DNA of 39,791 nt, taken from a virus. The notes under the pieces were generated by a model that was not told the DNA's origin, made no database searches, and saw only the letters and a list, made by a program, of their open reading frames with translations. The stretch is from the IMG/VR virus record IMGVR_UViG_3300036846_000708, positions 1 through 39,791 of that record, one strand, 5' to 3'. This document shows positions 652-39,571 of this stretch, one piece after another (the first letter of the stretch is position 1; each line of letters begins with the position of its first letter). The position numbers and the translations under genes were made by a program.

Positions 652-3474
652 ATGCCGACCGCCTCGCGCACATATCCGTATGCGGCGCTGGCGGCGAAGT
701 ATGTCGAAGACATCGTGGGCGAGCGGATCCCGGCCTGCCTCTGGGTGCGCCTGGCCTGCGAGCGCCAGGTCCGCGACCTGGAAACCTTCCGCGGCGACTC
801 GAGTCCGTACTACTTCGACCGCGCCGCGGCAAACCGCGTCTGCGATATCATCCAGCGGTTCCCGCACATCAAGGGCATCTGGGCGCAGCACCGCAAGAAG
901 CTGGAACTGGAACCGTGGCAGTGTTTCATCATCTGCACCGTCTTCGGCTGGATGTGCGCGGCCACCAAAACGCGGCGCTTCCGCGTGGCCTATGTCGAGA
1001 TTCCCAGGAAAAACGCGAAGGCGCTGGCACTCGACACCCCGATTCCCACTCCTACCGGATGGGCCACCATCGGCGATGTACAGGTGGGAGATGCAATCTT
1101 CGATCCAGAGGGTAATCCGGCTAGAGTCACGGCGGTTAGCGAGACATTCACTGACCACGACTGCTACGAATTAGAGTTTAGTAACGGGGAACGGATCGTC
1201 GCCGATGCGGGCCACATCTGGCGGACGCAGGCCCGTGTGAATCAGGTCGGCGTCCACGCAGGGCGGCAAATGGGAGCACGCGGGCAGTCCGTAATATCGC
1301 GCGATCGCACCACGCAAGAAGTATTCGACACCCAGACCTATGGCGAGCGTAACGACCGGAATCACAGCATCGCCCCGGCCAGTTCCTTAGCTTTACCTGA
1401 TGCCGACTTACTGATTGAACCGTACGTGCTCGGCGCATGGCTCGGTGACGGCACCAGCGCAGCGGCACACATTACTTGCGGTTCAGAAGATCTCGCGGAG
1501 ATGGCCGCCCAGATTCGGCATTGCGGTTATGCAGTCAAATTATCACGAGCGGGGGCTGCTTGGCGTGTATTGATTCAAGGCGTAGAGGTGGACCTGCTCG
1601 GCGACCGCATCGTGGGCACGAAGAGCACCGCAAATGTGCAGGCGCGACTGCGCGGCCTGGGTGTCTTGAACAGCAAGCACATCCCGGCAAATTATCTGCG
1701 GGCATCTCTTTCGCAACGGCTGGCACTGCTGCAAGGTCTGATGGATACCGACGGTACAATTAGCCGCTCCGGTCTGTGCATCTCATTTACCACGGTTAGC
1801 GAGCGCCTCGCTTCAGGAGTCCAGGAACTGTTATCTACTCTCGGCCTTAAGCACCGTACGCGCCATACGCCGCTGGTGTGCAATGGTGTGCCCGTTCCGG
1901 GCGTGGCTCACTTAATTCAGTTCCATTCCTTCCGCGACGAGCTTCCAGTATTTCGCCTGCCGCGCAAACTAGGCAGAATGCGCTTACGGTCAGAAGCGGC
2001 GACAGCCCCGCGTAGTCGTTCTATTCAGATTTGCCGTGTCGCTCCAATAGCATCGGTTCCCGTCCGGTGCCTCACAGTCGATTCGCCGACGCACATGTTT
2101 CTGTGCGGGCGGTCTATGGTGCCGACACACAACAGCACGCTGACCAGTGCACTCGGCAATTACCTCGTGGCCTGCGACAACGAGGCCGGCGCCTACGTGG
2201 TTTCTGCCGCCAATACGCGCGACCAGGCGAAGCTGGTCTTTACCGACGCGCAGATCATGGCGCGGCGCGAGGCTGGGTTCCGCAGTAAATTCGGCGTCGA
2301 AGTCCTGGCGCACACCATCGTGCAGACGGAAACCGCCAGTAAGTTCGAGGCGTTGAGCGCCGAGCACAGCAACCTCGACGGGCTGAATATCCATGCCGCT
2401 CTGATCGACGAACTGCACGCGCACCCAACCCGCGGCCTCTGGGATGTGCTCGAAACCGCCACCGGCTCGCGCTCACAGTCGCTCATCTGGGCGATCACGA
2501 CGGCGGGGATGAACCGCGCCAGCGTCTGCTACGACCAGCGCACACACGCCATCGAGATGCTCAAGCGGATCATCAGCGACGAATCGTATTTCGGGATCAT
2601 CTACACGCGCGACGATGACGACGATCCGTGGGACGAAGCCACGTGGATGAAGTGCAACCCGAATTACGGGATCTCGATCTATCCCGAAACGATGCGCGCC
2701 ACTGCGGCGCGCGCGCAGACAATGCCGTCGCAGCAGAATGCCTTCCTGACGCGGCATCTGAATATCTGGGTGAATGCCGATACCGCGTGGCTTCCGGCCG
2801 GCGCCTGGGACAAATGCGGCGACCCGGATCTCGACATCGAAGACTTCGCGCGCGACCGCTGCTACATCGGCATCGATCTGGCGCTGCGCAGTGATATCGC
2901 GGCCCTAGTCATCGCTTTTCCGCCTACCGCGCGCCGCGACTGGTGGGCCGTCTTCGGCCGCTACTACCTTCCCGAGCAGACGGTCCAGCGCAGCGAAAAC
3001 AACCACTACCAGGGCTGGGAAATCGAAGGCCGCATGGTCGCCACGCCCGGTGCAGTGACCGACTTCGACTTCATCATCGACCAGCTCGAGGATTACGCCT
3101 CGCGCTTCGATCTGATCGAGATCGCGCTCGACCCGTACCATGCGGGACCGCTGGTTACCACGCTCGAGAAGCGCGGACTGCCGACCCCGGTGCAGATCCG
3201 GCAGTCGGCCCCCAACATGTCGCCGGCGATGGTCGAGATGGAAGGTCTGGTGCTCTCGGGGCGCATCCGGCACGACGGCGACCCGGTGCTCGCCTGGATG
3301 ATGAGCAACGTGACCGCGCACCGCTCCGGCGATCTGATGCAGCCGCGCAAGGAATCGGATGAGAAGAAGATCGACGGCGTGACCGCGCTGCTCATGTGCC
3401 TGCACCGCGGCCTGAAGCAGGGCGGCGGCGGCGAGCGCGCCGACTACGAAAACCGGGGTTTATGGGCAATCTGA
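652..3474 (+). CDS. terL: Terminase large subunit (HK97-type), interrupted by an intein
   Basis: This is the motor and nuclease that pumps DNA into the prohead. The 940-residue precursor contains an intein at residues 124-494. Removing it leaves about 569 residues, a normal size. The spliced product regains the Walker A loop 'RKNAK|STL', so the insertion falls between the loop Lys and Ser. Walker B is 'AALIDELHAH' with Asp-Glu. The C-terminal nuclease shows the expected acidic residues in 'IGIDLALRSD', 'ALDPYHAG' and 'DGVTALL'. Activity should therefore depend on protein splicing. The ATG at 652 has no clear Shine-Dalgarno site. The 3' end overlaps the portal gene by 13 nt. Family assignment is secure; dependence on splicing is inferred. 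Confidence 0.95.
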   Translation: MPTASRTYPYAALAAKYVEDIVGERIPACLWVRLACERQVRDLETFRGDSSPYYFDRAAANRVCDIIQRFPHIKGIWAQHRKKLELEPWQCFIICTVFGWMCAATKTRRFRVAYVEIPRKNAKALALDTPIPTPTGWATIGDVQVGDAIFDPEGNPARVTAVSETFTDHDCYELEFSNGERIVADAGHIWRTQARVNQVGVHAGRQMGARGQSVISRDRTTQEVFDTQTYGERNDRNHSIAPASSLALPDADLLIEPYVLGAWLGDGTSAAAHITCGSEDLAEMAAQIRHCGYAVKLSRAGAAWRVLIQGVEVDLLGDRIVGTKSTANVQARLRGLGVLNSKHIPANYLRASLSQRLALLQGLMDTDGTISRSGLCISFTTVSERLASGVQELLSTLGLKHRTRHTPLVCNGVPVPGVAHLIQFHSFRDELPVFRLPRKLGRMRLRSEAATAPRSRSIQICRVAPIASVPVRCLTVDSPTHMFLCGRSMVPTHNSTLTSALGNYLVACDNEAGAYVVSAANTRDQAKLVFTDAQIMARREAGFRSKFGVEVLAHTIVQTETASKFEALSAEHSNLDGLNIHAALIDELHAHPTRGLWDVLETATGSRSQSLIWAITTAGMNRASVCYDQRTHAIEMLKRIISDESYFGIIYTRDDDDDPWDEATWMKCNPNYGISIYPETMRATAARAQTMPSQQNAFLTRHLNIWVNADTAWLPAGAWDKCGDPDLDIEDFARDRCYIGIDLALRSDIAALVIAFPPTARRDWWAVFGRYYLPEQTVQRSENNHYQGWEIEGRMVATPGAVTDFDFIIDQLEDYASRFDLIEIALDPYHAGPLVTTLEKRGLPTPVQIRQSAPNMSPAMVEMEGLVLSGRIRHDGDPVLAWMMSNVTAHRSGDLMQPRKESDEKKIDGVTALLMCLHRGLKQGGGGERADYENRGLWAI
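1021..2133 (+). mobile_element. Class 3-type intein with LAGLIDADG homing endonuclease, in terL
   Basis: A 371-residue self-splicing element (precursor residues 124-494). It starts with Ala in 'ALALDTPIPTPTGW', where most inteins have Cys or Ser. It ends in 'VPTHN' and is followed by Ser of the C-extein. A Trp after the block B His ('GHIW'), a Cys in block F ('VRCLTVDSP') and a Thr before the terminal HN match the WCT triad of class 3 inteins, in which the block F Cys makes the first attack. The central part has two LAGLIDADG-like motifs, 'LGAWLGDGT' (about residues 260-268) and 'LLQGLMDTDG' (about 359-368), both with the acidic residue kept, so homing may still work. Eight in-frame TTA leucine codons occur here and none was noticed in the flanking extein, which suggests recent transfer. 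Confidence 0.92.
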
Positions 3475-4706
3475 AAACCATGCTGGCGCGCGCCTGGAAG
3501 GCCATCGCCACCACCTTCGGCAGCGTGACGCGCATCGGGACCAGGAGCACTGGCGGTGGCGGCATCATCAACACCCTGCCTGGCGCCGGCATCACCAACC
3601 CCGCGGCCAATACCGCGCTGCAGTCCGCGGCCGTCTGGGCCTGCTGCCGGCTGATCGCCAACTCGATTGCATCGCTGCCCACAAACCTGTTCCACGACAC
3701 ATCGCAGGGAAAGGTGAAGGCCTTTGACTCGCCCTTGTACCGCGTGCTGACGCAGTCGCCGAATCCGATGATGACGGCGTCGCAATGGATGCAGCCGACG
3801 ATGATGAGCCTGCTGCTCTGGGGCAACGCCTTCACCTGGATCGACCGCGTGGATGGCGAGGTGCTGGGCCTGTGGCCGCTGAATGCATCGCGCGTCCAGA
3901 TCCTGCTCAAGACCGACGGCACGCTGGACTATTTCTATTCCGATCTGACCGGGCGCAGCCACCACTTCTCGGCCGAGGAACTGATCCACTTCCGGCTGTT
4001 CACTCTGGACGGTTACATCGGCCTGCCGGTGCTCGACTACCACCGCATGACGCTGGACTTCGAGACCGCCACCACCGCGTATGCTTACTCGATCTACCAG
4101 AACGGCGGGCAACCCGGCGGCGTGCTCGAGTATCCCGGCGTGCTGAAAGAGGCCCAGGTAAACCGCATCCGCGATTCCTGGAAGGCTACCCACTCAGGGC
4201 CGATGAACGCCGCGCAGGTCGCCATCCTCGAAGAGGGCATGAAGTACACGCCGCTCGCCCTGCCGCTCTCTTCGCTGAATTACATCGAAGAGAAGAAGTT
4301 CAGCGTCGAGCAGATCGCACGCATCTTCGGCGTGCCGCCGCACCTGATCGGCGCCATGGACAAGCCCACGTATGCAAGCGTCGAGCAGCAGTCCATCGAA
4401 TTCGTCCGCTACACCATCAACCCTTACGTGGTTTCTCTTGAGCAGTCGATCGCCAAGGCGCTGCTTCAGGGGCCGTACGTCTACAAGATGAACCTCAACG
4501 GCTTCGAGAGAAGCGACATCCGCACCCGCTATCTCAGCTATGCCACGGCGCGGCAGTGGGGCTGGATGTCGGCGAATGATATCCGCGAACTCGAAGACCA
4601 GAACCGCATCGAAGGCGGCGACGATTATCTGGTGCCGCTCAACATGTCGGCGGCGGCGGATGACGGCAAACCGTTGGCGCCGGCGGGGCCGCCGCAAGGA
4701 GCATAA
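3462..4706 (+). CDS. Portal protein, HK97 family
   Basis: The dodecameric ring at the unique head vertex through which DNA enters and leaves. From ATG 3462 ('MGNLKTMLARAW') it is 414 residues, normal for HK97-type portals. Typical segments include 'ALQSAAVWACCRLIANSIASLP' near the N-terminus, 'LLLWGNAFTWIDR', 'EELIHFRLFTLDGYIGLPVL' and 'ARIFGVPPHLIGAMDKPTYASVEQQ', a diagnostic family block. An upstream in-frame start at 3396 would add an Arg-rich stretch read from terL in another frame and is less likely. It overlaps terL by 13 nt and is followed by the protease gene. Confidence 0.94.
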   Translation: MGNLKTMLARAWKAIATTFGSVTRIGTRSTGGGGIINTLPGAGITNPAANTALQSAAVWACCRLIANSIASLPTNLFHDTSQGKVKAFDSPLYRVLTQSPNPMMTASQWMQPTMMSLLLWGNAFTWIDRVDGEVLGLWPLNASRVQILLKTDGTLDYFYSDLTGRSHHFSAEELIHFRLFTLDGYIGLPVLDYHRMTLDFETATTAYAYSIYQNGGQPGGVLEYPGVLKEAQVNRIRDSWKATHSGPMNAAQVAILEEGMKYTPLALPLSSLNYIEEKKFSVEQIARIFGVPPHLIGAMDKPTYASVEQQSIEFVRYTINPYVVSLEQSIAKALLQGPYVYKMNLNGFERSDIRTRYLSYATARQWGWMSANDIRELEDQNRIEGGDDYLVPLNMSAAADDGKPLAPAGPPQGA

Positions 4707-4708
4707 GT

Positions 4709-5341
4709 ATGGAACGCAAAGCGTGCGCGCTGATCGAACTGAAGGCGGAAGGGGACAGCGGCCTGTTCTCGGGTTACGCCTCGACCTACAACGTGGACCT
4801 GCAGGGCGACAGAGTGATCCCCGGCGCCTTCGCGCAGTCGATCAAGGACAAAAAAGGCAAGGTCCCGATCTTCGCCAACCATGAAGAGTGGATCGGTTTC
4901 TCTACCGGCCTGGCCGAGGATGGCAAAGGCCTCGCGCTGACCGGCAAGCTCGCGCTCGGCAACACCGTTTCCCAGAACACCTATGCCCTGTTGCAGGAAG
5001 CCGCGGCGCTCGACTTCCGCGTCGGCATGTCGATCGGCTTCATGGCGAAGCAGTGGGATTACGAGGACGACATCCGCACACTATCGGAGATCGACCTCTG
5101 GGAAGTGTCCATCACGCCCTTTCCGGCGCAGCCGAAGGCCTACGTGGCCGATGTGAAAACGTGGCGTGATTTCGAGAAACATCTGCGGGAGGCAGAAGGT
5201 TTCTCACGGGTCGAGGCAAAGAAGATTATTCGCGCCTTCGCGGCCTGTAACCAGTCTTCGAGCGGGATGCCCGACGACGCCCCTACGCCGCTTACCCGGC
5301 GATTACTGGCGGCATTGACCGCCGTTCAAGGAGCCGAATAA
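4709..5341 (+). CDS. Prohead maturation protease, HK97 family
   Basis: A 210-residue serine protease that would cleave the capsid scaffold domain after prohead assembly. The N-terminus ('LFSGYASTYNVDLQGDRVIPGAF') is typical. The catalytic candidates are His58 in 'ANHEE' and Ser108 in 'VGMSIGF', followed by 'EIDLWEVSITPFPA'. This is the usual fingerprint of caudoviral prohead proteases. A good ribosome site (AAGGAG) precedes ATG 4709. The stop overlaps the capsid start by one base (TAATG), implying coupled translation. Its natural substrate should be the N-terminal delta domain of the capsid protein at 5341. The second capsid protein at 7857 lacks such a domain. Confidence 0.93.
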   Translation: MERKACALIELKAEGDSGLFSGYASTYNVDLQGDRVIPGAFAQSIKDKKGKVPIFANHEEWIGFSTGLAEDGKGLALTGKLALGNTVSQNTYALLQEAAALDFRVGMSIGFMAKQWDYEDDIRTLSEIDLWEVSITPFPAQPKAYVADVKTWRDFEKHLREAEGFSRVEAKKIIRAFAACNQSSSGMPDDAPTPLTRRLLAALTAVQGAE

Positions 5342-6741
5342 TGGCAATCCCAGGGATTGACAACGAAGAACTGGAACTCATCCGCAAACTGCGGTTCGAG
5401 TGGAAGCAGGACATCACCGCCAACATTAAACAGGCGAAAGCGGAGGGGTTCGTGGACCCCGAAGCCCGCGAGAAGGCCGGGAAGGTCGAGAAGGACCTGA
5501 ACACACACTCTGACGCTGCCGCCGCGGCGTCCGCCGCCGCCGCTGCCGCCATCAAACGGTGCGACGACCTGGATGCGAAGGTGAAGTTGTACGGCGAACG
5601 CAGTTCCCGGCCGCCGGGCGCCGGCGCCGGCGAGGACGGGGTGCTGGTGAAGAGCCTGGGCGCCAAGTTCGTGGAAAGCGACCAATTCAAAAACTGCCAG
5701 TTCAGTGGGCGCTTCCAGATCCAGACCGGCCTCACCAAGACGCGCATCAAGGACATCATGGCCGGCATCCTGGGCCGCAAGGCCGTGACTACTATCGCCG
5801 AAGGCGGCGCCACCACCATCACACCGCCGGTCGGCGCTTACCCGATCTTTCCGCGGCGCATGGGACTGATCCCGCAGCAGTTCGCGCCGGTCACCATGCG
5901 CGATCTGGTGGACGTGGTCCCGATCGACGGCACCAACGCCGTCGAGTACGTGACGGAAGTCTGGACCAATGCCGCCGACTACCAGATTCTGGAAGGCGAC
6001 AAGAAGGCGCAGTCGGGCGTGACCTACACGGACAACACCGCGGTGGTCCGCACCATTGCGCACTACGTGAAGGTATCGCGCCAGATGGCGAGCGACGTCA
6101 GCTTTATCATCGCCACCATCGAAAACCGCCTGGCGCTCTTCGTGTTGCTCAAGGAAGATACCGAGATCCTGTTCGGCAACAACGCCGCTGGCCACCTCTG
6201 GGGCATCATGCCGCAGGCGACGGCGGCGACGGTCTACTATCCCGGTCCCGCGCCGGCGACCGACACCATGCTCGACCAGTTGAATGCCGCCGAGACCTAT
6301 ATCGAGAACCAGTTCTATTTCCCGACCGCGTACGTGCTGAACCCGACCAACTGGTTCCATATCGAAAGCCTGAAGACGACCTACGGCCAGTACCTGCTGC
6401 CGAGTTCGCCGATGAACGAAGGTACGCCGCGGCTGTGGGGACTTCCGGTGATCACCACCCCGGTCATGACGCTCAACGATTACCTGTGCGGCGCCTTCCC
6501 CGGAAATGCCGCGCTCTTCGATCGCGAGACAGTCAACGTCGAAATGGCGTTCCAGAATGAGGACGACTTCATTCGCAACCTGATCACGCTGCGAGCAGAA
6601 GAACGGATTGCGTTCGCCGTCTTCGTGCCGAAGGCCTTCGCCAAGGGACCGTTCGTTACCGCAGCTCTCGGGGCCTTGGGATCGGGACCTTCAGGGCCGG
6701 GAACTTCGGGGCCGGGGCACCTCGGGCCGGGAACCAAGTGA
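5341..6741 (+). CDS. Major capsid protein with delta scaffold domain, HK97 fold
   Basis: A 466-residue capsid precursor. Residues 1-95 are charged and helical with an Ala-rich stretch (roughly 56-69), as expected for the delta scaffold domain removed by the protease. The mature part begins near 'DGVLVKSLGAKF' and includes 'MRDLVDVVPI', 'YVKVSRQMASDV', 'YVLNPTNWFHIESLK', 'RLWGLPVITT' and 'FQNEDDFIRNLITLRAEERIAFAV', a clear HK97-fold ending. The last ~18 residues are an unusual Gly-Pro repeat (GPSGPG, TSGPG, HLGPG) encoded by a repeated GGGCCGGG DNA motif. An AAGGAG site precedes the start, which overlaps the protease stop. Confidence 0.94.
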   Translation: MAIPGIDNEELELIRKLRFEWKQDITANIKQAKAEGFVDPEAREKAGKVEKDLNTHSDAAAAASAAAAAAIKRCDDLDAKVKLYGERSSRPPGAGAGEDGVLVKSLGAKFVESDQFKNCQFSGRFQIQTGLTKTRIKDIMAGILGRKAVTTIAEGGATTITPPVGAYPIFPRRMGLIPQQFAPVTMRDLVDVVPIDGTNAVEYVTEVWTNAADYQILEGDKKAQSGVTYTDNTAVVRTIAHYVKVSRQMASDVSFIIATIENRLALFVLLKEDTEILFGNNAAGHLWGIMPQATAATVYYPGPAPATDTMLDQLNAAETYIENQFYFPTAYVLNPTNWFHIESLKTTYGQYLLPSSPMNEGTPRLWGLPVITTPVMTLNDYLCGAFPGNAALFDRETVNVEMAFQNEDDFIRNLITLRAEERIAFAVFVPKAFAKGPFVTAALGALGSGPSGPGTSGPGHLGPGTK

Positions 6742-7530: not shown

Positions 7531-7860
7531 ATGCCAGAGCATCCCGGTATCGAAGCAGGCGTCCTGGATAAGCGGGTCACGCTTTTGCAGCCCGACTATA
7601 ACACGGAACTGGACGAGATCACCGACTGGACCCCGGTCGCCACGGTGTGGGCGGGCATCATGCCGGCGGCCGTCCGCGAAACCAACCAGGCGGGCCGCAC
7701 TATCGCCATCACCATGATCGGCATCGTAATCCGCTTCCGTACCGACATCGATGCGCGGTGGCGGATTCAGGACCGTGACCGTACCTACCAGATCAGAGGC
7801 ATCGACGACGTGCTGCGCCGTCACGTGCAGTTGCAACTAACTTGCGAGGAGGTCCAATGA
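7531..7860 (+). CDS. Head closure / head-tail joining protein
   Basis: A 109-residue, beta-rich protein of the phage head-tail joining family. 'LDKRVTLLQPD' at the N-terminus, a central 'TPVATVWAGIMPA' strand pair and 'DIDARWRIQDRDRTYQIRGIDD' near the end are the usual landmarks. It should form the second connector ring that seals the portal channel after packaging. It abuts the adaptor gene exactly. Its stop overlaps the start of the second capsid gene (ATGA), and an AGGAGG ribosome site for that gene lies within its last codons. Confidence 0.85.
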   Translation: MPEHPGIEAGVLDKRVTLLQPDYNTELDEITDWTPVATVWAGIMPAAVRETNQAGRTIAITMIGIVIRFRTDIDARWRIQDRDRTYQIRGIDDVLRRHVQLQLTCEEVQ

Positions 7861-8768
7861 AATCCCCCGGCAAACAGATCACCGACATGCTGATCGAAAA
7901 GCCCGAGCGCCGCCGCTTCGATATTGCCGTCGATCGCAAAGCGGCGACTCCGATTCTCGCTTATCCGCCGACTTACGAAACCGTTGACCGCGTGATTCCA
8001 GGACGCACGTGGCAATACCGGATGCGCTCGCTGATCACGCCGGGATCGACCGTCGGCTCGGGCATTGTCTACGTGCGTGAGACGTCGTTTACAACCAACA
8101 CGATTGTGCCCGTCGCTCCAGGCGCGCCCAAGCCGCAACCCGTCATGACGTACGACGTGCAGCAGCAACCCGTGATCACGATCCCGGCGTATCTAAAGCT
8201 GCCCTCGCAGTACTGGCAAGACTTCGCGATGCTTCAGTCGTGGATGGACTCGCGCTTGATGTACGGGCTCGCGCTCGCTGAAGAGAATCAGTTTTTGAAC
8301 GGCAACGGCACCGCGCCGAATCTGCAAGGATTTATGGCGGTCGCGCTCACCGCGCCCGCGCCCACTCCCGCGCCGACTCCGGGTGCAGCCGCTGTGCTCG
8401 CGGGCGTCGCGAGCGGTATCGCGAGCGTCTATGGGCAGGCTTACGCGCCGAATGGAATCGTGCTCAACCCGAACGATTTCGGACTCATGCTCTTCGCGCT
8501 CGGCACGCCGACTCTGGTCACGACTCCGATCACGCTATGGGGCATTCCCGTCGTCGCCACGCAAGCGATGGCGAGCGGCAGCTATCTGGTCGGACAGTTC
8601 GACCCGTACTCGCAGATATTCGACCGCGAAGAGGCGGCGGTCGAAGTCGCCGATCAGAACGAAGACGACTTCATCCGCGACCTCGTAACGGTGCGCGCTG
8701 AAGAGCGGCTCGCGCTCGCTATCTATCAGCCTTCGGCCTTCGCCAAAGGCACGTTCCTGCTGTCATGA
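7857..8768 (+). CDS. Second HK97-fold capsid protein, lacking a delta domain
   Basis: A 303-residue protein clearly related to the major capsid protein at 5341. Its C-terminus contains 'VLNPNDFGLMLFALG', 'TLWGIPVVATQAM', 'FDREEAAVEVADQNEDDFIR' and 'TVRAEERLALAIYQPSAFAKG', aligning with the matching blocks of the first capsid over the whole A/P-domain end. There is no long helical scaffold region, so it would need no proteolytic maturation or would use the scaffold of the other protein. An Ala/Pro-rich loop (about residues 165-180) replaces part of the domain. An AGGAGG site precedes ATG 7857. It is inserted between head-closure and gp10-like genes and its codon style differs from theirs. Its role as minor capsid, alternative shell or acquired spare is unknown. 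Confidence 0.85.
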   Translation: MKSPGKQITDMLIEKPERRRFDIAVDRKAATPILAYPPTYETVDRVIPGRTWQYRMRSLITPGSTVGSGIVYVRETSFTTNTIVPVAPGAPKPQPVMTYDVQQQPVITIPAYLKLPSQYWQDFAMLQSWMDSRLMYGLALAEENQFLNGNGTAPNLQGFMAVALTAPAPTPAPTPGAAAVLAGVASGIASVYGQAYAPNGIVLNPNDFGLMLFALGTPTLVTTPITLWGIPVVATQAMASGSYLVGQFDPYSQIFDREEAAVEVADQNEDDFIRDLVTVRAEERLALAIYQPSAFAKGTFLLS

Positions 8769-8829: not shown

Positions 8830-9282
8830 ATGACCGGAAGAGACGCAATGGACCCCGCGATTCAGGCCATCTTCACCGCCATCGAATCGTACATGGCGGC
8901 GAATAGCCTGCCGCAGTGCAGTTGCAATGCGACGGCATCGGGCGCGGGCATGAATGAGAGCATCTCCTGCACGCAGTTGAACGGCGACAGCTACACGTTC
9001 ACGTACTTTACAAAGGGCACGTCGATTGTCATCACGCCCGCGGGCGTGAGTCTCGGCCCCGGCGGCGTGCAGCAGTTCACGGCGACGGCGACTGCCGCTG
9101 ATGGCTCGCCTATCGCGGCGGCGGCGTTCGCGTGGACGCTCACGAGCGGGCCGGGAACATGCGATGCCACTGGACTGTACACCGCGCCCGTGACGATCGA
9201 CGCCGCCCAAAACGCCACGATCCGCTGCACGCTCACGGGCGGCGCGGCGTGGTCACAAGTCATTCTCACGGTACATCCATGA
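8830..9282 (+). CDS. Ig-like domain protein, possible capsid decoration
   Basis: A 150-residue protein. ATG 8830 is preferred over an upstream TTG at 8797 because GAGGTG lies six bases before it. Residues ~1-45 are Cys-containing (CSC and later Cys). From about residue 60 an Ig-like bacterial beta domain follows: 'GVSLGPGGVQQFTATATA', 'FAWTLTSGPGT', 'ATGLYTAP', 'ATIRCTLTGG'. Such domains decorate heads and tails in many phages. It directly follows the second capsid gene, shares its codon style, and ends with an ATGA overlap into the gp10-like gene. A decoration or stabilising role on the head is an inference from domain and position. Confidence 0.65.
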   Translation: MTGRDAMDPAIQAIFTAIESYMAANSLPQCSCNATASGAGMNESISCTQLNGDSYTFTYFTKGTSIVITPAGVSLGPGGVQQFTATATAADGSPIAAAAFAWTLTSGPGTCDATGLYTAPVTIDAAQNATIRCTLTGGAAWSQVILTVHP

Positions 9283-9725
9283 AAACCATTTCCATCAAAA
9301 GCAAGGCCATGAAGCTCGAGGGCGTGCCGCAGATGGTAAAGACCCTCCAGGATATGGCGAAGACGCTGAACGGCGAAGGCTCGAGCGCCATGACCGAGCG
9401 GCTGAAGGCCATCACCATGAAACCCGCAATGGTCGTGCGCGACGAAGCCAAAGACCTGGTCCCAGTGGTGACCGGCGCGTTGAAGGAAGCCATCTTCGCG
9501 GGACCGCTGAAGCAAAAGGTTGGCGCGCTGGTCGGCGTCAAGGGCGTTTATTATGCGGCCTTCGTGGAGTTCGGCACCAGCAAGGCGGAAGCGCACCCCT
9601 ACTTCCGGCCGGCGCTGAATGCCACCCGCCCGCTGTACGCCAACATGATCGCGGGCGACCTGAAGCAATTGATCGACGACGTGGCGCGCGCCGATGCGTG
9701 GCACGCAACGGATTCCGGCTCATGA
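9279..9725 (+). CDS. Tail completion protein, HK97 gp10 family
   Basis: A 148-residue protein starting at ATG 9279. The C-terminal half shows the family pattern: 'VVRDEAKDLVPVVTGALKEAIF', 'YYAAFVEFGTSKAEAHPYFRPAL', which is diagnostic for HK97 gp10-like neck/tail completion proteins. It probably caps the tail tube and joins it to the head. It is coupled by ATGA overlaps on both sides, consistent with a continuous head-tail operon into which the second capsid module was inserted upstream. Confidence 0.9.
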   Translation: MKTISIKSKAMKLEGVPQMVKTLQDMAKTLNGEGSSAMTERLKAITMKPAMVVRDEAKDLVPVVTGALKEAIFAGPLKQKVGALVGVKGVYYAAFVEFGTSKAEAHPYFRPALNATRPLYANMIAGDLKQLIDDVARADAWHATDSGS

Positions 9726-22672: not shown

Positions 22673-22825
22673 GTGCCTAGCGACGATAAAGCCTATCTCT
22701 GCGACCGCTGCCACGCCGCGCCTGGCGTGAAGGCCGTCCTCTACGACTGGCTCTGTGCGCCCTGTGCCGAAGAATGCATTGCCCGGATCGAGCGCGAGAG
22801 GTGGAGTCGATATGAGCAAAACTGA
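22673..22825 (+). CDS. Small zinc-finger protein
   Basis: A 50-residue protein from GTG 22673, with AGGGAG six bases upstream. Two Cys pairs, '[10 protein letters not shown]' and 'LCAPCAEEC', spaced by about 19 residues, suggest a zinc ribbon. The C-terminus is charged. It overlaps the bet start by 14 bases. The function is unknown; a DNA- or protein-binding role is likely. Confidence 0.6.
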
Positions 22826-23771
22826 AAGCACCACGGAACTGGCAGTGGCCCGCACGCCGGCCGCGCCCGCGCCAGTGCAGTTATCCAGGGAGCAGATACA
22901 ACTGCTCAAAGATACTATCGCCAAAGGTGTCACCGATAACGAATTGAAGCTCTTTATCGAGGTGAGCCGGCGTATGAATCTTGATCCCTTCCGCCGACAG
23001 ATCCATGCCGTCAAACGTTGGGATGGCACGCTGAAACGCGATGTGATGACGTGCCAGACGGGGATCGACGGATTCCGTCTGATCGCGGAGCGTACCGGAC
23101 GGTACGAGGGGCAGGAAGGCCCTTTCTGGTGCGGTCCTGAAGGCCGCTGGATCGACGTCTGGCTCGACAAAGCGCATCCGCCGGCAGCGGCCAAGGTCGG
23201 CATCTTCCGCAAGGGTTTTCAGAAGCCGCTGTATGCAGTGGCGCTCTACGCCGAATACGTGCAATACAACAGAGAAGGCAAGCCGAATTCCATGTGGGCT
23301 AAGATGCCCGCAAATCAACTAAGTAAATGCAGCGAGGCATTGGCTCTGCGTAAGGCGTTCCCTGAAGAGTTGAGCGGCCTGTATGCCAACGAGGAAATGG
23401 AGCAGGCCGATAACCCGCCGCCGCCGCCGGCAGGGGGCAAGCCGCCCGCAGAAGACTTCAGCGATGTACCCGAGCCGGTGAAGATCATGTGGTCCACCAT
23501 GCACGGGATCGCGGAGGTTTGCAACGTATTCCTCGATCTCAAGGGGCGATTGGTCCAGGTGATGGGAGATGCCGGGACGACGGAATACTACCGGATCCTG
23601 CGTGAATCAGGCGGCGGCGTGGCACATGCCAACCAGCTTAAGCAGAAGGCTGCGCGCCGGGCATCGTGGCACATGTGGCAAGCGATCGAGCAGGCGAAAG
23701 CGCTGCGCCAGCCGGCGCCTGAAACTGAGGCTGAATTCATAGAGCCGCGCGAACCCGGCGAAGGGGAATGA
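22812..23771 (+). CDS. bet: Phage recombination protein Bet (RecT/Redbeta single-strand annealase)
   Basis: A 319-residue annealing protein that pairs complementary single strands during phage recombination. ATG 22812 ('[12 protein letters not shown]') follows GGTGGAG. Diagnostic blocks are '[19 protein letters not shown]'-like (here with V at the first place), '[22 protein letters not shown]', 'WIDVWL', '[12 protein letters not shown]', '[31 protein letters not shown]', all as in Bet. The C-terminal third is Pro-rich then helical and is variable in the family. Bet usually works with a 5'-3' exonuclease. The Gp157 gene follows as in many phages, and the PD-(D/E)XK protein at 26796 is a possible nuclease partner. 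Confidence 0.93.
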
Positions 23772-25620: not shown

Positions 25621-25665
25621 AGCGCGACCGCGTGCCGCCGCTGTTTGAGGGGCTGGATAACTCTG

Positions 25666-26799
25666 ATGCGAATTGATCCCGAATTCCAGGCGTTGATTGC
25701 ACCGCTACAGCAGGAAGAGCGCGATCAACTGGAAGCGAATCTTGTGGCGCACGGTTGCCGTGACCCGCTGGCGCTCTGGCGCGACATCCTGATCGATGGG
25801 CACAATCGCTACGAGATTTGCGCTCGGCTGAAGATCCGATATCGGACGGTTGATGTGCCGCTGGCTTCGCGTGAGCACGCGCTCTTGTGGATTGAAGAGA
25901 ACCAGCTAGGGCGGCGGAATCTGAAAGAGTGGCAACGCGCGGCCATTACGCATAGCATCCTGGAACGCCGTTCGGCGTTGGAGCGTCAAGAGCGGGCGCG
26001 GAAGGGGCGGGCACGCGGCGGCGACGCAACCCCGGAGCAGAAACAGAGGCGCTTGTCGGAGACGTCCTCCGACAAGCGGTCGGATAAGAAGAAAGACTCT
26101 CGCGCCGCCGTATCCAAACAGGCCCGCGTCAGTGAATGGAAACTTCGCCAAATCGGCGAGATAAAAAAGAAAAAGCCGGAAGCTATCGCAGCAATTCGGA
26201 CGGGCGAGAAAACGGGCAACGAAGTAATAGCGGAGATCCGAAACGCGGAGAAGCAGAAGGTCCGCGAACGCATCGAAGCGGAAGCTCCGCAATATCCAGA
26301 CGGGCCGTTCCGCGTGCTAGTAGTCGATCCGCCGTGGAAGTACGGCGCACGCAGCGAAGATCCGACGCATCGAGCGGCGAATCCGTATCCCGATATGGAT
26401 ATCGACGAGATACGCGGGCTTCCGGTGGCGAAGTTGGCGCACCCGGATTGTGTTCTGTGGCTGTGGACAACAAACGCATTTCTTCGCGACGCATTCACAT
26501 GCCTAGATGCGTGGGGCTTTCAGCAGAAGACCATTCTCACGTGGGTAAAGGATCGCATGGGACTGGGCGACTGGCTGCGCGGCATGACGGAGCATTGTCT
26601 GCTTGCGATCAAAGGTCGACCGCTCGTTACACTTACCAACCAAACGACGGCGCTTACCGCGCCGAGAGGAAAGCATTCCGCTAAGCCGGAAGAGTTCTAT
26701 GTGCTCGTGGAAAGCCTGTGCCCTGGCGCGAAGCTCGAAATGTTCGCGCGGGAAAAGCGCAAGGGCTGGGAGGCATGGGGAGCAGAGGCCGATAAATGA
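25666..26799 (+). CDS. ParB-like / MT-A70 adenine methyltransferase fusion
   Basis: A 377-residue protein from ATG 25666. Residues 1-75 form a ParB N-terminal-like domain ('LIDGHNRYEICARLKI'), followed by 'LWIEENQLGRRNLKEWQRA', a typical ParB continuation. A basic, low-complexity linker follows ('DKRSDKKKDSRAAVSKQARV'). The C-terminal ~170 residues are an MT-A70 N6-adenine methyltransferase: 'VLVVDPPWKYGA' (the DPPW active-site motif), 'CVLWLWTTNAFLRDA', 'FQQKTILTWVKD', 'EHCLLAIKGRP', 'KPEEFYVLVE'. Such fusions occur in many phages and may protect phage DNA from host restriction. It overlaps the nuclease-like gene by 4 bases. Confidence 0.9.
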   Translation: MRIDPEFQALIAPLQQEERDQLEANLVAHGCRDPLALWRDILIDGHNRYEICARLKIRYRTVDVPLASREHALLWIEENQLGRRNLKEWQRAAITHSILERRSALERQERARKGRARGGDATPEQKQRRLSETSSDKRSDKKKDSRAAVSKQARVSEWKLRQIGEIKKKKPEAIAAIRTGEKTGNEVIAEIRNAEKQKVRERIEAEAPQYPDGPFRVLVVDPPWKYGARSEDPTHRAANPYPDMDIDEIRGLPVAKLAHPDCVLWLWTTNAFLRDAFTCLDAWGFQQKTILTWVKDRMGLGDWLRGMTEHCLLAIKGRPLVTLTNQTTALTAPRGKHSAKPEEFYVLVESLCPGAKLEMFAREKRKGWEAWGAEADK

Positions 26800-27679: not shown

Positions 27680-27830
27680 AGCGGCGCCGGCGCAAGCCAG
27701 AACCCGTACTGGTGGAGAGGACCAGCCACTTCAGCACAATCGACGACCCGGCACGCGCAGTGGACCTGTTCGCCACGATGCTGCGGTCGGTAGAAATCGA
27801 AAAGAAAAGACGCGCGGAGAAAAACGCTAA
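27504..27830 (+). CDS. Zinc-ribbon protein
   Basis: A 108-residue frame from ATG 27504, the only start in this frame. The N-terminal ~50 residues form a clear zinc ribbon, 'RCNRCQHAWLRR' and 'KCPKCKTIFWNQPR', a pattern frequent in phage and bacterial DNA-binding accessory proteins. Beyond residue ~60 the sequence becomes Arg/Gly-rich and overlaps another plausible frame (27673-27894). The stop overlaps the recombinase ATG (TAATG). No good ribosome site is present; coupling to the upstream frame is likely. Confidence 0.6.
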   Translation: MPKNILAALVLRCNRCQHAWLRRIAHEPRKCPKCKTIFWNQPRVRKIKPERRAAVRGGKAAPAQARTRTGGEDQPLQHNRRPGTRSGPVRHDAAVGRNRKEKTRGEKR

Positions 27831-27894
27831 TGATGGCACCGACAATGAGGCCCCGCCTCAACGTTCTCGAACTCGAAAGAGTCAGCACGAATAA
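27673..27894 (+). CDS. Small basic protein overlapping the recombinase start, tentative
   Basis: A 73-residue frame from GTG 27673. 'VERTSHFSTIDDPARAVDLFATMLRSVEIEKKRRAEK' reads as a sensible helical protein, better than the overlapping Arg-rich tail of the zinc-ribbon frame. It overlaps that gene by 158 bases and the recombinase by 65 bases. No clear ribosome site. It may be a remnant or a real overlapping gene. Confidence 0.35.
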   Translation: MVKRRRRKPEPVLVERTSHFSTIDDPARAVDLFATMLRSVEIEKKRRAEKNANDGTDNEAPPQRSRTRKSQHE

Positions 27895-29467
27895 ACAAGA
27901 TTTGGAGCGGCAGGAATACGACCTCGCCGACAACAGAGCGGAGTACAACCTGAACCCGCTACAAAAATTCAGCATCAAGGAATCCGGCGAAAAGGTTTTG
28001 AAATCCGAAGACATCGCAAGACTGAGGGAAGAGCTAAAAAAGCCAGCCGTAGACGGCGTGAGCGTGTCGGCGATTGATCGGTTCGCCCGGCCCCAGGATA
28101 TGATCTCCTGGGCGTTTTTCCAAGTTTTCATCGACCTGAAAAAAGTGATCGTCTCGAAACGCGAAGGGCTGATCGAGCCGTGGACGCCGCGAGGCCGGAA
28201 GGCTCTCTGGGCGGCTCTCATGCAGGCGGGCAACGAATTGAGTGACCTGAAGGATCGGCTTCAGAGCAACCGCCGGAAGCAGCACGCGCAGAAGAAGCCC
28301 ATGAATACGGATGCGCCATACGGCGTAATTTACGTGGACAAGTACAGCCGCGATAGCGAAGGCAAGAGCCAGTACTACAAAGAAGACTTCTCGCCCGTGC
28401 TCTGGGCCCCGGGGAAGACGCCCATCGGGGGGCTCACCCGGCGTGGAGTCGTAGAGATGGTTTTCCGTTGGCGGTACGCCGACCGGATGAAGTCCCGTGC
28501 CATCGCAACGCGCCTGAACAAGATGGGCATCCTGAGCCCCGGCAAGAAGTACAAGGACGGACGCTGGCAGTACGAACCCGGCCTGTGGCAACGGCACGCC
28601 GTGATTCATCTTCTGCAAAACCGCCACTACATCGGCGAACACTGGGAGGGCGGCAAACAGGTGGATGTGGCCTGCCCGCAGTTCATCGACCGCGACGTAT
28701 TCGATGCCGTCAAGAAGAGCTTCGCGGAAAACAAACAGGACCGTAGCGGCAGACCGCCGACGCAGAGTGTGCTCTCCGAATTCCTGAGATGCGGGCTCTG
28801 CAAGCATAAGTTGTACATGGATCAGCGGGATCGCAAGCGCAAGCCCATTTACCGCTGCGTCAATTACGACGAGCGGCAATTGAAACGGCGTTGCTCTCTG
28901 AAGTCCATCCTCTGCGCGAAAATCGATGCTGCGGTATTTCATACCATCTGGCAGCACCTGACGCAGCCTGAGCTTCTGCTGGCAAACGCAAGGGCGTATT
29001 ATGAATCCTTACCAACCAGAGGCGCTTCGGCGAAGCTTGAAAAGGAACTTGTCGAGATGCGGGGACAAATTGAGCGGACGCAGGAGATGGTTCGTCTGGG
29101 CACCTACGATAAAGACAAGGGCAACACGAAGATTTTGGAGGACATGAAGCGCGTCCGCGAGATCGAAGCTGACCTGGGTGCAGCGGGGAGTGTAGTGAAT
29201 CTTCCGGCGCAGCGCGTGATCGAAGCGGCGTGCCGCCAGATCGCCGAAGGCCCGGAGCCCGGCGACTTCGAAACGCGCCGTCCGGTGCTTGAAAAGCTGA
29301 TCGATCTGCGCATCTTCTATGCAGACAATGAGTTCGAAGTTACGGCCAAAGTTCCGGTCGCGCTGACGGCTGCAAAGCATGGGGGGAAGTGTAGTGGCAG
29401 TCAATACGGCCACTACACTTCTACCCTCTATATCCCGTTGCAAATAAAAGGAAGGGTCGCCGCATGA
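27830..29467 (+). CDS. int: Large serine recombinase (integrase)
   Basis: A 545-residue site-specific recombinase that would integrate and excise the phage. The N-terminal catalytic domain shows 'ERVSTNKQDLERQ' with the nucleophile Ser19 and the conserved 'SAIDRFARPQD' Arg region. The recombinase domain follows ('GVVEMVFRWRYADRMKSRAIAT-RLN', 'VIHLLQNRHYIGE'). A zinc ribbon lies around residues 320-350 ('FLRCGLCKHKLYMD', later 'YRCVN' and 'RRCS'). A coiled coil follows ('KLEKELVEMRGQIERTQEMV'). Length is typical of large serine recombinases. The start may also be ATG 27845. The 3' end carries a perfect inverted repeat (29387-29420). This gene shows that the phage is temperate. Confidence 0.92.
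   Translation: MMAPTMRPRLNVLELERVSTNKQDLERQEYDLADNRAEYNLNPLQKFSIKESGEKVLKSEDIARLREELKKPAVDGVSVSAIDRFARPQDMISWAFFQVFIDLKKVIVSKREGLIEPWTPRGRKALWAALMQAGNELSDLKDRLQSNRRKQHAQKKPMNTDAPYGVIYVDKYSRDSEGKSQYYKEDFSPVLWAPGKTPIGGLTRRGVVEMVFRWRYADRMKSRAIATRLNKMGILSPGKKYKDGRWQYEPGLWQRHAVIHLLQNRHYIGEHWEGGKQVDVACPQFIDRDVFDAVKKSFAENKQDRSGRPPTQSVLSEFLRCGLCKHKLYMDQRDRKRKPIYRCVNYDERQLKRRCSLKSILCAKIDAAVFHTIWQHLTQPELLLANARAYYESLPTRGASAKLEKELVEMRGQIERTQEMVRLGTYDKDKGNTKILEDMKRVREIEADLGAAGSVVNLPAQRVIEAACRQIAEGPEPGDFETRRPVLEKLIDLRIFYADNEFEVTAKVPVALTAAKHGGKCSGSQYGHYTSTLYIPLQIKGRVAA
29387..29420. repeat. Perfect 12-bp inverted repeat in the 3' end of the recombinase gene
   Basis: AAGTGTAGTGGC (29387-29398) and GCCACTACACTT (29409-29420) are exact reverse complements around a 10-base centre. 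The size and dyad symmetry resemble attachment sites of serine recombinases. No T-run follows, so it is not a normal terminator. It codes for the recombinase C-terminus. An attP function is a hypothesis. Confidence 0.6.
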
Positions 29468-33063: not shown

Positions 33064-33424
33064 GGATGCGGAATACGAGAAACAACTCCAGCGGCTGAGC
33101 GGCCTACCTAAATTTCCGCAGGTTCCAGCTGCTCAGAAAGAACTGGTCCGTGCGCTGCGGCGGATCTCGGACAGCGACAAAGATTTTCTCCACAAACTGA
33201 TTAGCGACGTGATCGACACGGCAACAGTTTGCCCGACGCCGGCGGATCTGATCCAGCGCGCTGGAGCCAAGCGGCAGCATGCGCACGCGAGCATCGGCCA
33301 TGTCGATTGTCCGCATTGCCACGGTTCCGGCTTCGTTACCACGCTTCGAAAGGTCAGCGTTGCGGGGATTGCGCCATACGAAACCGAATTCGCGGCTGCG
33401 TGTAAGTGTCGCGGGGGGAACTGA
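33041..33424 (+). CDS. Zinc-finger protein following the initiator
   Basis: A 127-residue protein from GTG 33041, overlapping the initiator gene by 23 bases; GGAGG lies a few bases upstream. The N-terminal two thirds are helical ('KELVRALRRISDSDKDFLHKLI'). The C-terminal part has 'DCPHCHGSGFV', a DnaJ-type CxxCxGxG motif, and 'ACKCRGG' at the end. Small zinc-finger proteins like this often follow phage initiators and may help load the helicase; here that is inference. Confidence 0.6.
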   Translation: MKNSKLLEDAEYEKQLQRLSGLPKFPQVPAAQKELVRALRRISDSDKDFLHKLISDVIDTATVCPTPADLIQRAGAKRQHAHASIGHVDCPHCHGSGFVTTLRKVSVAGIAPYETEFAAACKCRGGN

Positions 33425-33425
33425 A

Positions 33426-34229
33426 ATGGCATCTGAACTTGTTCCACTGTTGAAATCGTTTGAAGATGGGCAACCCCGAATTAGAGATTTAGAGGGTGTC
33501 GGGACGGCCAGCCCGCAATACCCGCTCGACGTGAATGGCGATCTGAACATTACTGGCCACTACTTCCGCAACGGCGTGCAGTTGTCGAGAAGTCCTGATA
33601 TGGAGCGCATGCGCGATATGCAGACTGAAACACGCACGCCGGAAGATGCGTCACTGGCCGCGATCGGTGGGTGTTTCGAGCGACGGCGACGGAAATGGTT
33701 TCGGCTCGCCTATTCCGTGCTCCATGATGTGGACGAATCGCACGAGGCGGTAGCCGATGCGGTATTGGCCGCCTGTAACTCTGCCGGGAAGTTTCGCGGC
33801 GACAGTGGTCTGGAAGGATGGTTGCATGCGATTGTGCTTAACTGCGCGCGAATCCGGCGGCGGCGAACTGTTAGGTCGATAGTGCAATATGTCGGAGCTA
33901 TGGACGAATATGCGAGCCATCCGCAATCTATCGAGCAGGCGCTGGTCCAGGAGGAAGAGGGGCGTCTGGTTAGGATTGTCCTACGGACCCTGCCGGCGAA
34001 GTTTAGGTGCGTGTTCGACCTCATATATTTCGATGGCTTGTCTTACCACCAGGCTGCGGAGCTTTTGGGGATTACTTACCCTTCCCTAAAATCGCGGGTG
34101 GCCGACGGTCTGCGTCTTATTCGCAATAAGCATGCCGCACTGTGTCGCCCATTGGTCGAGCGAAAGCTGCGGCAAACTTTCGCACAGGTGCTCGAGTCGG
34201 AAATGTCCGATAATCCAGGAATTATCTGA
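33426..34229 (+). CDS. ECF-like sigma factor with N-terminal tail-fibre-like motif
   Basis: A 267-residue protein from ATG 33426 with GGGGGAA upstream. Residues ~20-55 ('GVGTASPQYPLDVNGDLNIT', then 'YFRNGVQL') match the 'GIGTASPGYSLHVVGDCNIS' and 'YRVNGTPL' segment of the tail fibre at 20320-20417 in about 18 of 33 positions. The rest is sigma-like: region 2 'RKWFRLAYSVLHDVDESHEA' with 'GLEGWLHAIVLNCARIRRRR', and region 4 'LRTLPAKFRCVFDLIYFDGL' with 'HQAAELLGITYPSLKSRV'. An internal ATG at 33600 would give a normal sigma factor without the motif. It could activate late genes. The fusion is very unusual. Confidence 0.7.
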   Translation: MASELVPLLKSFEDGQPRIRDLEGVGTASPQYPLDVNGDLNITGHYFRNGVQLSRSPDMERMRDMQTETRTPEDASLAAIGGCFERRRRKWFRLAYSVLHDVDESHEAVADAVLAACNSAGKFRGDSGLEGWLHAIVLNCARIRRRRTVRSIVQYVGAMDEYASHPQSIEQALVQEEEGRLVRIVLRTLPAKFRCVFDLIYFDGLSYHQAAELLGITYPSLKSRVADGLRLIRNKHAALCRPLVERKLRQTFAQVLESEMSDNPGII

Positions 34230-38427: not shown

Positions 38428-38730
38428 ATGACGATATTCGGCGCAACCTTCGCCAGCAAGGTCGCTGTGGTCGGCACTACCGGCGCCCACATCCGCTATA
38501 TCCCCGGCACTCTGGCGGCGAGCATGGTGAGCGATGGAATCGCCGCGGCCAGGTCCGCAGGCGGCAAGGTCCGCGAGGTAGCGTTGACGCGCACCGCCGA
38601 TACCCATGCCCAGCGTATCGGTCCGAGCGATGGCCGCGCTGTCGGTGTGAAGTTCTTTAGGACCGTGCGCCTGGACGCCAGCGCATCCAGGATCTTCGAA
38701 CACCATCCGCGATGTACGTATGACTACTGA
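38428..38730 (+). CDS. Unknown protein upstream of the kinase-HNH gene
   Basis: A 100-residue protein from ATG 38428 (a GTG at 38416 is also in frame). 'FASKVAVVGTTGAHIRYIPG', 'MVSDGIAAARSAGGKVREVA' suggest an alpha/beta fold, and the C-terminus 'VRLDASASRIFEHHPRCTYD' is not distinctive. It overlaps the kinase-HNH gene by 11 bases, so the two are probably co-expressed. No family was recognised and there is no clear ribosome site. TAACCCCC lies at 38405-38412 upstream. Confidence 0.5.
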   Translation: MTIFGATFASKVAVVGTTGAHIRYIPGTLAASMVSDGIAAARSAGGKVREVALTRTADTHAQRIGPSDGRAVGVKFFRTVRLDASASRIFEHHPRCTYDY

Positions 38731-39571
38731 GCCGGCAATCGTTCGTAGAATGGCGGAAACCGCCGTCGCGTTGACGGTAACTATCGGCGCGCCGGGCTCA
38801 GGGAAATCGACGTGGGCGGCACAGCAGCAAGCCCGTGTGGTGAGCACGGATGCGCTTCGTGCCGTTACGGACGATCGCCGCGCGATTGGCGAGTTCTTCG
38901 AGTGGGCGTTCGGCGAATTGAGAGAATCGCTCACGCATGGCGAAGCCGTGATTCTCGACTCGTGTGCCGTGAATCGCCGCATCCGCCAGCAAGCTATCGA
39001 AGCCGCACGCGCGGCTGACGTGCGCGCTATTGCGGTTGTATTCGATACCGACCTAGAAACCTGCTGCGACGCCCAGCGCGAACGAGCGCATCCGGTACCC
39101 ATAGGCATGGTGCGCTCGATGCACGCAGCAGTCACCGACATCACGGACGCGCGGTTACGGGCTGAGGGTTTCGATGACGTGCGGCATGTCCGTCGTGGCG
39201 ACGCGCCCGCCAGTGTGCTGCACCGTAGCGTGCCAGCCCTCCATAGCGAATGCAGGTCGCCGCTGTGCGGCCGATACGCACACGCCAACGGATTCTGCGT
39301 GCTGCATCAGGACCGGCAGCGTGCGCAGTCGGCGCCAACCCCTGGCACCAACCTGTCGCCCGCTAACCGCCGATTCCGCAGGGCGCGGCACAGCTACCTC
39401 GTACGGCATCCCATGTGCGCCATGTGCCGGCGCGAGCCTGCCGGCATCCTCGACCACATCGTGCCCCACCGTGGTATGCCGCAGCTGTTCTGGGATCAGG
39501 AGAACTGGCAGGGTTTGTGTATCCGCTGCCACGGAATCAAGACCGCACGCGAGACTTGGCATGGAAATTAA
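38720..39571 (+). CDS. Polynucleotide-kinase-like P-loop domain fused to HNH endonuclease
   Basis: A 283-residue two-part enzyme. Residues ~14-150 resemble the kinase domain of T4 polynucleotide kinase: Walker A 'TIGAPGSGKSTWA', a candidate base Asp in 'VSTDALR', and a lid region 'RERAHPVPIGMVRSM' aligned with T4 'RGTKAVPIDVLRSM'. Residues ~165-283 form a complete phage HNH protein, with an N-terminal zinc knuckle ('CRSPLCGRYAHANGFCVLH'), 'CAMCRREPAGILDHIVPHRG', 'LFWDQENWQGLCIRCHGIKT'. Stand-alone HNH proteins normally occupy this place before terS and help terminase cut DNA. The kinase part could act on DNA 5' ends. ATG 38752 is an alternative start. Confidence 0.85.
   Translation: MTTEPAIVRRMAETAVALTVTIGAPGSGKSTWAAQQQARVVSTDALRAVTDDRRAIGEFFEWAFGELRESLTHGEAVILDSCAVNRRIRQQAIEAARAADVRAIAVVFDTDLETCCDAQRERAHPVPIGMVRSMHAAVTDITDARLRAEGFDDVRHVRRGDAPASVLHRSVPALHSECRSPLCGRYAHANGFCVLHQDRQRAQSAPTPGTNLSPANRRFRRARHSYLVRHPMCAMCRREPAGILDHIVPHRGMPQLFWDQENWQGLCIRCHGIKTARETWHGN

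Follow-up and report, generated by a model that had tools for sequence, protein, structure and literature searches.

A conserved second HK97-fold capsid gene in a lineage of HK97-type siphophages known from metagenomes and its possible role as a vertex subunit

Most HK97-type phages make both the hexamers and the pentamers of their shell from one protein, and the mechanism of the switch between them is a long-standing question. The head operon of the IMG/VR virus record studied here (39,791 bases, called the window below) encodes, together with TerL, portal, protease and major capsid protein (MCP), a second HK97-fold capsid protein, and the question is what the phage could use it for. This gene, CAP2 (7857-8768, 303 aa; like all the head operon features located below, on the + strand), comes after those for the prohead protease (4709-5341, Peptidase_S78, 8e-23), the primary major capsid protein MCP1 (5341-6741, 466 aa, Pfam Phage_capsid 7e-39) and the head completion/closure protein HCP (7531-7860, Pfam Phage_HCP 2.6e-18). 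Its ATG at 7857 overlaps the TGA stop of HCP (7858-7860) in an ATGA, and a Shine-Dalgarno-like AGGAGG is found within the 3' end of the HCP gene (7847-7852). Downstream there is a gene for an Ig-like (Big) domain protein of 150 aa (8830-9282), which may decorate the head or neck, and then one for an HK97 gp10-like tail completion/neck protein (9279-9725), recognized by a domain/profile match. A previous interpretation of the same letters (the sequence-only reading) had CAP2 inserted neatly between the head closure and gp10-like genes; the overlap with HCP agrees with this, but it is the Ig-like gene that precedes the gp10-like one. Promoter and terminator scans, Rfam, tRNA and PADLOC searches gave nothing relevant.

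Outside the head genes proper, the window contains several other recognizable features. TerL (652-3474) is interrupted by an intein-like LAGLIDADG insert (about residues 125-489) with different codon use, missing from the TerL of the relatives L003, L005 and L008. A large serine recombinase (27830-29467, with Resolvase, Recombinase and zinc ribbon domains) suggests that the phage is temperate. There are also a RecT-family annealing protein (22755-23771), an MT-A70 methyltransferase with what looks by eye like a ParB-like N-terminal part (25645-26799), a phage-encoded sigma-70 family factor with regions 2 and 4 (33279-34229) and, near the end of the record, an AAA_33 P-loop kinase-like domain fused to an HNH nuclease domain (38720-39571).

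CAP2 belongs to the HK97-type capsid family (PF05065 / PHROG 10) by its profile matches (Pfam Phage_capsid 1e-31; PHROG 10, major head protein, 6e-40) and is 35% identical to MCP1 over 279 aa (BLASTP, E=2e-40), far beyond chance, confirming the presence of an HK97-fold capsid gene beside the MCP in one operon. The homology had been described as a C-terminal half in common with the MCP, but actually it covers the entire capsid domain. Moreover, CAP2 is nearer to the MCPs of some cultured phages, such as Xanthomonas phage Valrath (46% identity) and HK97 (39%), than to MCP1. Structure prediction with AF2 and Foldseek also gave a capsid and not a non-capsid fold, with spine helix, E-loop, P- and A-domains. 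The CAP2 model has a short N-terminal helix (residues 4-14, low confidence) and a capsid domain with a long helix at 123-148, and that of MCP1 has two long delta-domain helices (residues 8-35 and 40-88; 5362-5604), missing in CAP2, and an HK97 capsid domain. The top PDB matches of both models were the capsids of HK97, D3 and phiXacJX1 (Foldseek E for CAP2 from 1e-18 to 1e-25). The mean pLDDT was just 68 for CAP2 and 68-69 across both models, so the details of the models are unreliable.

The coiled-coil delta scaffold that is found in single-MCP phages devoid of a separate scaffold is absent from CAP2. In phage D3 the N-terminal 70-80 delta residues form coiled-coil towers, and the last part of the domain, the PDAR, folds as a helix-turn-strand and acts as a clamp on the P-domain at local threefold sites (PMC12749128). 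CAP2 had been proposed to have no delta domain at all, which is correct for the coiled-coil part, but residues 1-28 (7857-7940; consensus MKTPGEQITxALLExPERRRFDIxLERK) resemble the C-terminal end of the delta domain plus the cleavage junction. They align with the last delta stretch of other MCPs (KSLGQxFxES..FK...GR....), K28 falling on HK97 K103, the annotated cleavage point of HK97, and the R27-K28-A29 junction is invariant among CAP2 sequences. When a PDAR profile was compared with shuffles, 4 or fewer of 500 shuffles scored as high in eight of the 12 CAP2 N-termini; the match was weaker in the other four, being less clear in L008 and L019 and poor in two (L009/L010). The reverse PDAR search found the expected places, with weak scores. 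A PDAR-like N-terminus is in this way supported, not proven, and the likeness is moderate. By revealing this segment of about 28 residues, the N-terminal alignment spoke against a CAP2 start exactly at the mature N-terminus, as we had first supposed. The pro-region is thus of ~28 residues in CAP2 versus more than 100 in MCP1, which makes CAP2 a member of the family by fold and not a complete self-assembling MCP.

The residues involved in the HK97 crosslink, which are also those of the HK97/D3 subgroup, are largely conserved in CAP2. The lysine (HK97 K169; K92 in the window, 8130-8132) and the catalytic glutamate (HK97 E363; E282, 8700-8702) are found in 12 of 12 sequences, and the asparagine (HK97 N356) in 10, being replaced by Asp in the window (D275, 8679-8681) and in L008. 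These residues are family-wide, so their retention must be due in part to descent. Of the triad with a role at the D3 local threefold (its meaning is taken from PMC12749128), N360 was found in 11/12 and both F364 and R372 in 12/12. On the other hand, CAP2 has its own changes at sites otherwise near-invariant (HK97 120, 160, 165, 172, 187-188 and 261) and fixed differences from all the MCPs (in HK97 positions, A187P, H188A, W at 206 and Q at 372). The combination indicates a protein that keeps its ties to an HK97 shell and differs elsewhere. Most CAP2s have lost the A-domain segment equivalent to HK97 287-295 and others retain it, so that it does not provide a universal penton signature.

These conserved and changed positions bear on two alternative explanations. 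CAP2 might be incorporated at random, or in part, in both hexamers and pentamers, stabilising the shell or varying its surface from no fixed position. The full capsid domain and the conserved crosslink residues would fit such a role, as would the several MCP1 lineages with which CAP2 is found (see below), but the fixed changes exclusive to CAP2 suggest a dedicated environment, and the natural solved cases that we found place the second protein at the pentamers (PMC8569155, PMC9958956), making random mixing quite unlikely. A location outside the virion, either as an encapsulin-like compartment or as a decoy against rival phages or a capsid-sensing host defence, we consider very unlikely: the conserved crosslink and threefold residues, PDAR-like start and R-K-A junction are not obviously needed by a decoy or a compartment, no recognisable cargo gene adjoins CAP2 and there was no PADLOC match, even if the missing coiled-coil scaffold and the accessory distribution described below would be compatible with it.

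The search for other phages carrying both genes, proposed with the sequence-only reading, was successful. CAP2 and MCP1 were found together in at least 12 distinct IMG/VR phages, the window and L003, L004, L005, L008, L009/L010, L014, L015, L019, L047, L049/L050 and L164 (the CAP2 of L006, L007 and L011 is identical to that of L005, and L170, perhaps the same phage as L047, was not counted separately). MCP1 is present in every one of them, although in L004 and L009 the contig edge cuts it short. In 22 whole records there were two capsid matches per record with CAP2 and one per record without it. In the L005 group CAP2 is found between gp6 and HCP (L005:7963-9224) and in all the others it comes after HCP, indicating that the gene has been relocated at least once. 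About 27 relatives lack CAP2 and share the gene order TerL, portal, protease, MCP1, gp6, HCP, gp10, gp17 and TTP. One of them, L098, whose MCP1 is near that of the window, illustrates the junction without CAP2: HCP ends with GAGGAGGTTCTATGA, the Ig gene starts in the same ATGA, and AGGAGG is found at this junction too. CAP2 is therefore an accessory gene, missing from sister phages with the same operon. The Ig-like gene, conserved in the operon with CAP2 present or not, is usually found in the ~27 relatives too, ruling out that it is part of a CAP2 cassette. Two other peculiarities were seen among the relatives, an in-frame stop that splits the MCP1 frame of L092 (2-1180) after the spine-helix region, due to a sequencing error or a real interruption, and in L068 an extra gene (2263-5031), placed between those for the tail terminator and the tail tube, whose 922-aa product has what look by eye like Ig-like repeats.

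Among cultured phages, 957 records matched CAP2 and 954 matched MCP1, each at one place only, and no record with the two genes was found at this sensitivity. Scans of genome contigs gave no prophage relatives, and no description of a siphophage with such a capsid gene pair was found in the open-licence literature searched. Within the papers and collections covered, CAP2 is then a previously undescribed second capsid gene that is conserved and under selection in a lineage of HK97-type siphophages, and this lineage consists of tailed phages known from metagenomes only.

The comparison of phages with and without CAP2 is also relevant to shell size. The sequence-only reading had mentioned a different shell size as a possible effect, and the nearest functional precedent, Ccm of SaPIbov5, a second HK97-fold protein with a shortened delta domain (PMC8569155), would point in this direction. 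However, the long contigs with CAP2 (35.6-41.0 kb) overlap in length with those without it (30-42 kb), which argues against a switch, with the caveat that these contigs are not necessarily complete genomes. Besides, CAP2 is the phage's own gene and not that of a satellite like SaPI Ccm, its neighbours being the phage head operon. A protein that switches shell size or shape is thus highly improbable.

The complete CAP2 copies are all intact, down to 52-56% identity, and their ATG starts fall in corresponding alignment columns. Pairwise dN/dS was 0.17-0.26 for CAP2 and 0.11-0.27 for MCP1; synonymous sites are near saturation in most pairs, the window and L003 having a dS of 0.54 and a ratio of 0.17. 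These values indicate that CAP2 is under purifying selection comparable to that of MCP1. Decay of the second gene in close relatives, which would have spoken against a capsid function, was not observed (complete copies intact, dN/dS about 0.2). The codon use of CAP2 is slightly unlike that of the head genes (e.g. Leu CTC over CTG, Ala GCG over GCC) and this, together with the accessory distribution, could be expected of a functionless module, spare or in decay, that was captured recently, but such an origin is contradicted by the intact copies, by the dN/dS of about 0.2 and by the single start column throughout, and is hardly credible. The idea of a spare module captured from another phage survives only as far as capture is concerned: CAP2 forms its own clade, is missing from sister phages and moves together with the neck/tail block, but it is neither spare nor decaying.

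Regarding its origin, in a tree of 38 sequences all the CAP2s form one clade and all the MCP1s another, each with 100/100 support. Such separate old clades rule out that CAP2 is a recent duplicate of MCP1, and a distant common origin is compatible with them: when both were forced into one clade, a grouping absent from the best tree, the AU test gave p=0.255. The deep origin may be either an old duplication or a capture. More recent inheritance was followed through the other genes. The monophyly of the phages with CAP2 was rejected for TerL (AU p 4e-4), portal (4e-51), protease (2e-6) and MCP1 (1e-29) and weakly rejected for gp6 and the Ig gene (p about 0.012), and it passed without rejection, which is weak evidence, for HCP, gp10 and gp17. 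In the TTP tree all of them are on one side of a branch with support of 90. They belong to two head lineages with MCP1s ~40% identical to each other, indicating that one CAP2 family works with MCP1s this different. Matrix correlations were moderate for every gene (r 0.43-0.64) and singled out no partner; L004, with a truncated MCP1, was excluded from them and from the MCP1 monophyly test. With grouping on the tail side and rejection on the head side, CAP2 appears to have followed the neck/tail block, and not the MCP, in its inheritance, the head module having been exchanged, although linkage alone could give such co-inheritance, which by itself does not prove a neck partner.

This pattern could also be explained if CAP2 were a shell-type subunit at the portal or neck side, in a collar or portal-adjacent ring, that partners the neck/tail module instead of MCP1. 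Both its phylogeny (TTP on one side, HCP, gp10 and gp17 unrejected, and MCP1, portal, protease and TerL rejected) and its location, flanked by HCP and the neck genes (in L005 by gp6 and HCP), go in this direction. Nevertheless, plain linkage would suffice if recombination breaks the operon around gp6/HCP, the TTP support is just 90 and non-rejection is a weak argument. CAP2 also keeps the capsid-lattice residues and, to our knowledge, there is no HK97-fold neck protein, so that we regard a neck subunit as unlikely.

We conclude that CAP2 is probably a structural subunit that joins the MCP1 lattice in one shell, a role supported by the full capsid domain, trimmed scaffold, PDAR-like N-terminus, kept lattice residues, selection and stable place in the operon between head and neck. 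As to where it would sit, the vertex (penton) is an even bet on the present analysis; a penton would be expected to co-evolve with the MCP, and the pairing of CAP2 with MCP1s ~40% identical argues against it. Both incorporation and position are inferred, and we give co-assembly with MCP1, most likely as penton, a probability of roughly 0.5. Of the mixed shells suggested earlier, the likely one would have MCP hexamers and CAP2 vertices. MCP1, which has a coiled coil of its own, should be capable of initiating the prohead together with the protease and the portal. CAP2, lacking the coiled coil, would probably be unable to build a shell by itself and would join the lattice at the local threefolds, through the P-domain and the PDAR-like start. 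The prohead protease would then cleave it at K28|A29, in the invariant R27-K28-A29 junction, and the K/N/E crosslink would lock it into the expanded shell.

If CAP2 is indeed a vertex subunit, the coiled-coil towers would be dispensable at the vertices, and a vertex gene could be passed from phage to phage along with the neck/tail block and serve different MCPs afterwards, that is, a shell gene could be inherited with this block instead of with the MCP. The natural split in two proteins, with coiled coil and PDAR in MCP1 and the PDAR-like segment alone in CAP2, would make the hexamer-pentamer switch testable by co-expression. We propose, tentatively and with slightly less than even confidence, a class of HK97-type siphophages with a two-protein shell in which the scaffold of the vertex subunit is reduced to the P-domain clamp (PDAR).

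Several known systems resemble this arrangement in part. Encapsulins have the HK97 fold and no long delta domain, but they are found outside phage head operons and carry cargo. CAP2 differs from such stand-alone compartments with a cargo gene in its operon context and in its best listed structural matches, which are phage capsids. The MCPs of HK97 (gp5), D3 and phiXacJX1/Valrath share with CAP2 the fold, PF05065, PHROG 10, 35-46% identity, the crosslink positions, the P-loop residues and the PDAR-like segment; they differ in being single capsid genes with a complete delta domain, whereas CAP2 lacks the coiled coil and occurs alongside an MCP. The SaPIbov5 Ccm is, like CAP2, a diverged HK97-fold homolog (24% identical to CP) beside an HK97-type MCP, located at the pentamers and with delta domain and N-arm both shorter than those of CP (PMC8569155). 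It is however a satellite gene, keeps a delta domain of 87 residues (128 in CP) and alters the head shape (PMC8569155), while CAP2 is in the phage's own operon with ~28 delta-like residues and no indication of a size change. T4 gp24 is also a second HK97-fold protein beside the MCP (about 20% identical, versus 35% here), and its pro-region is far smaller than that of the MCP gp23, a propeptide of 10 residues compared to 65 (PMC9958956), just as CAP2 accompanies MCP1 with a shorter pro-region in at least 12 phages. In T4, a prolate myophage, the scaffold core is separate, and in the window phage, with its HK97-type head, the delta domain is fused in the MCP; gp24 has been shown to form pentamers (PMC9958956), whereas CAP2 is a candidate vertex protein. 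It is the location of both gp24 and Ccm at the pentamers, with pro-regions shorter than those of their MCPs, that suggests the vertex model for CAP2.
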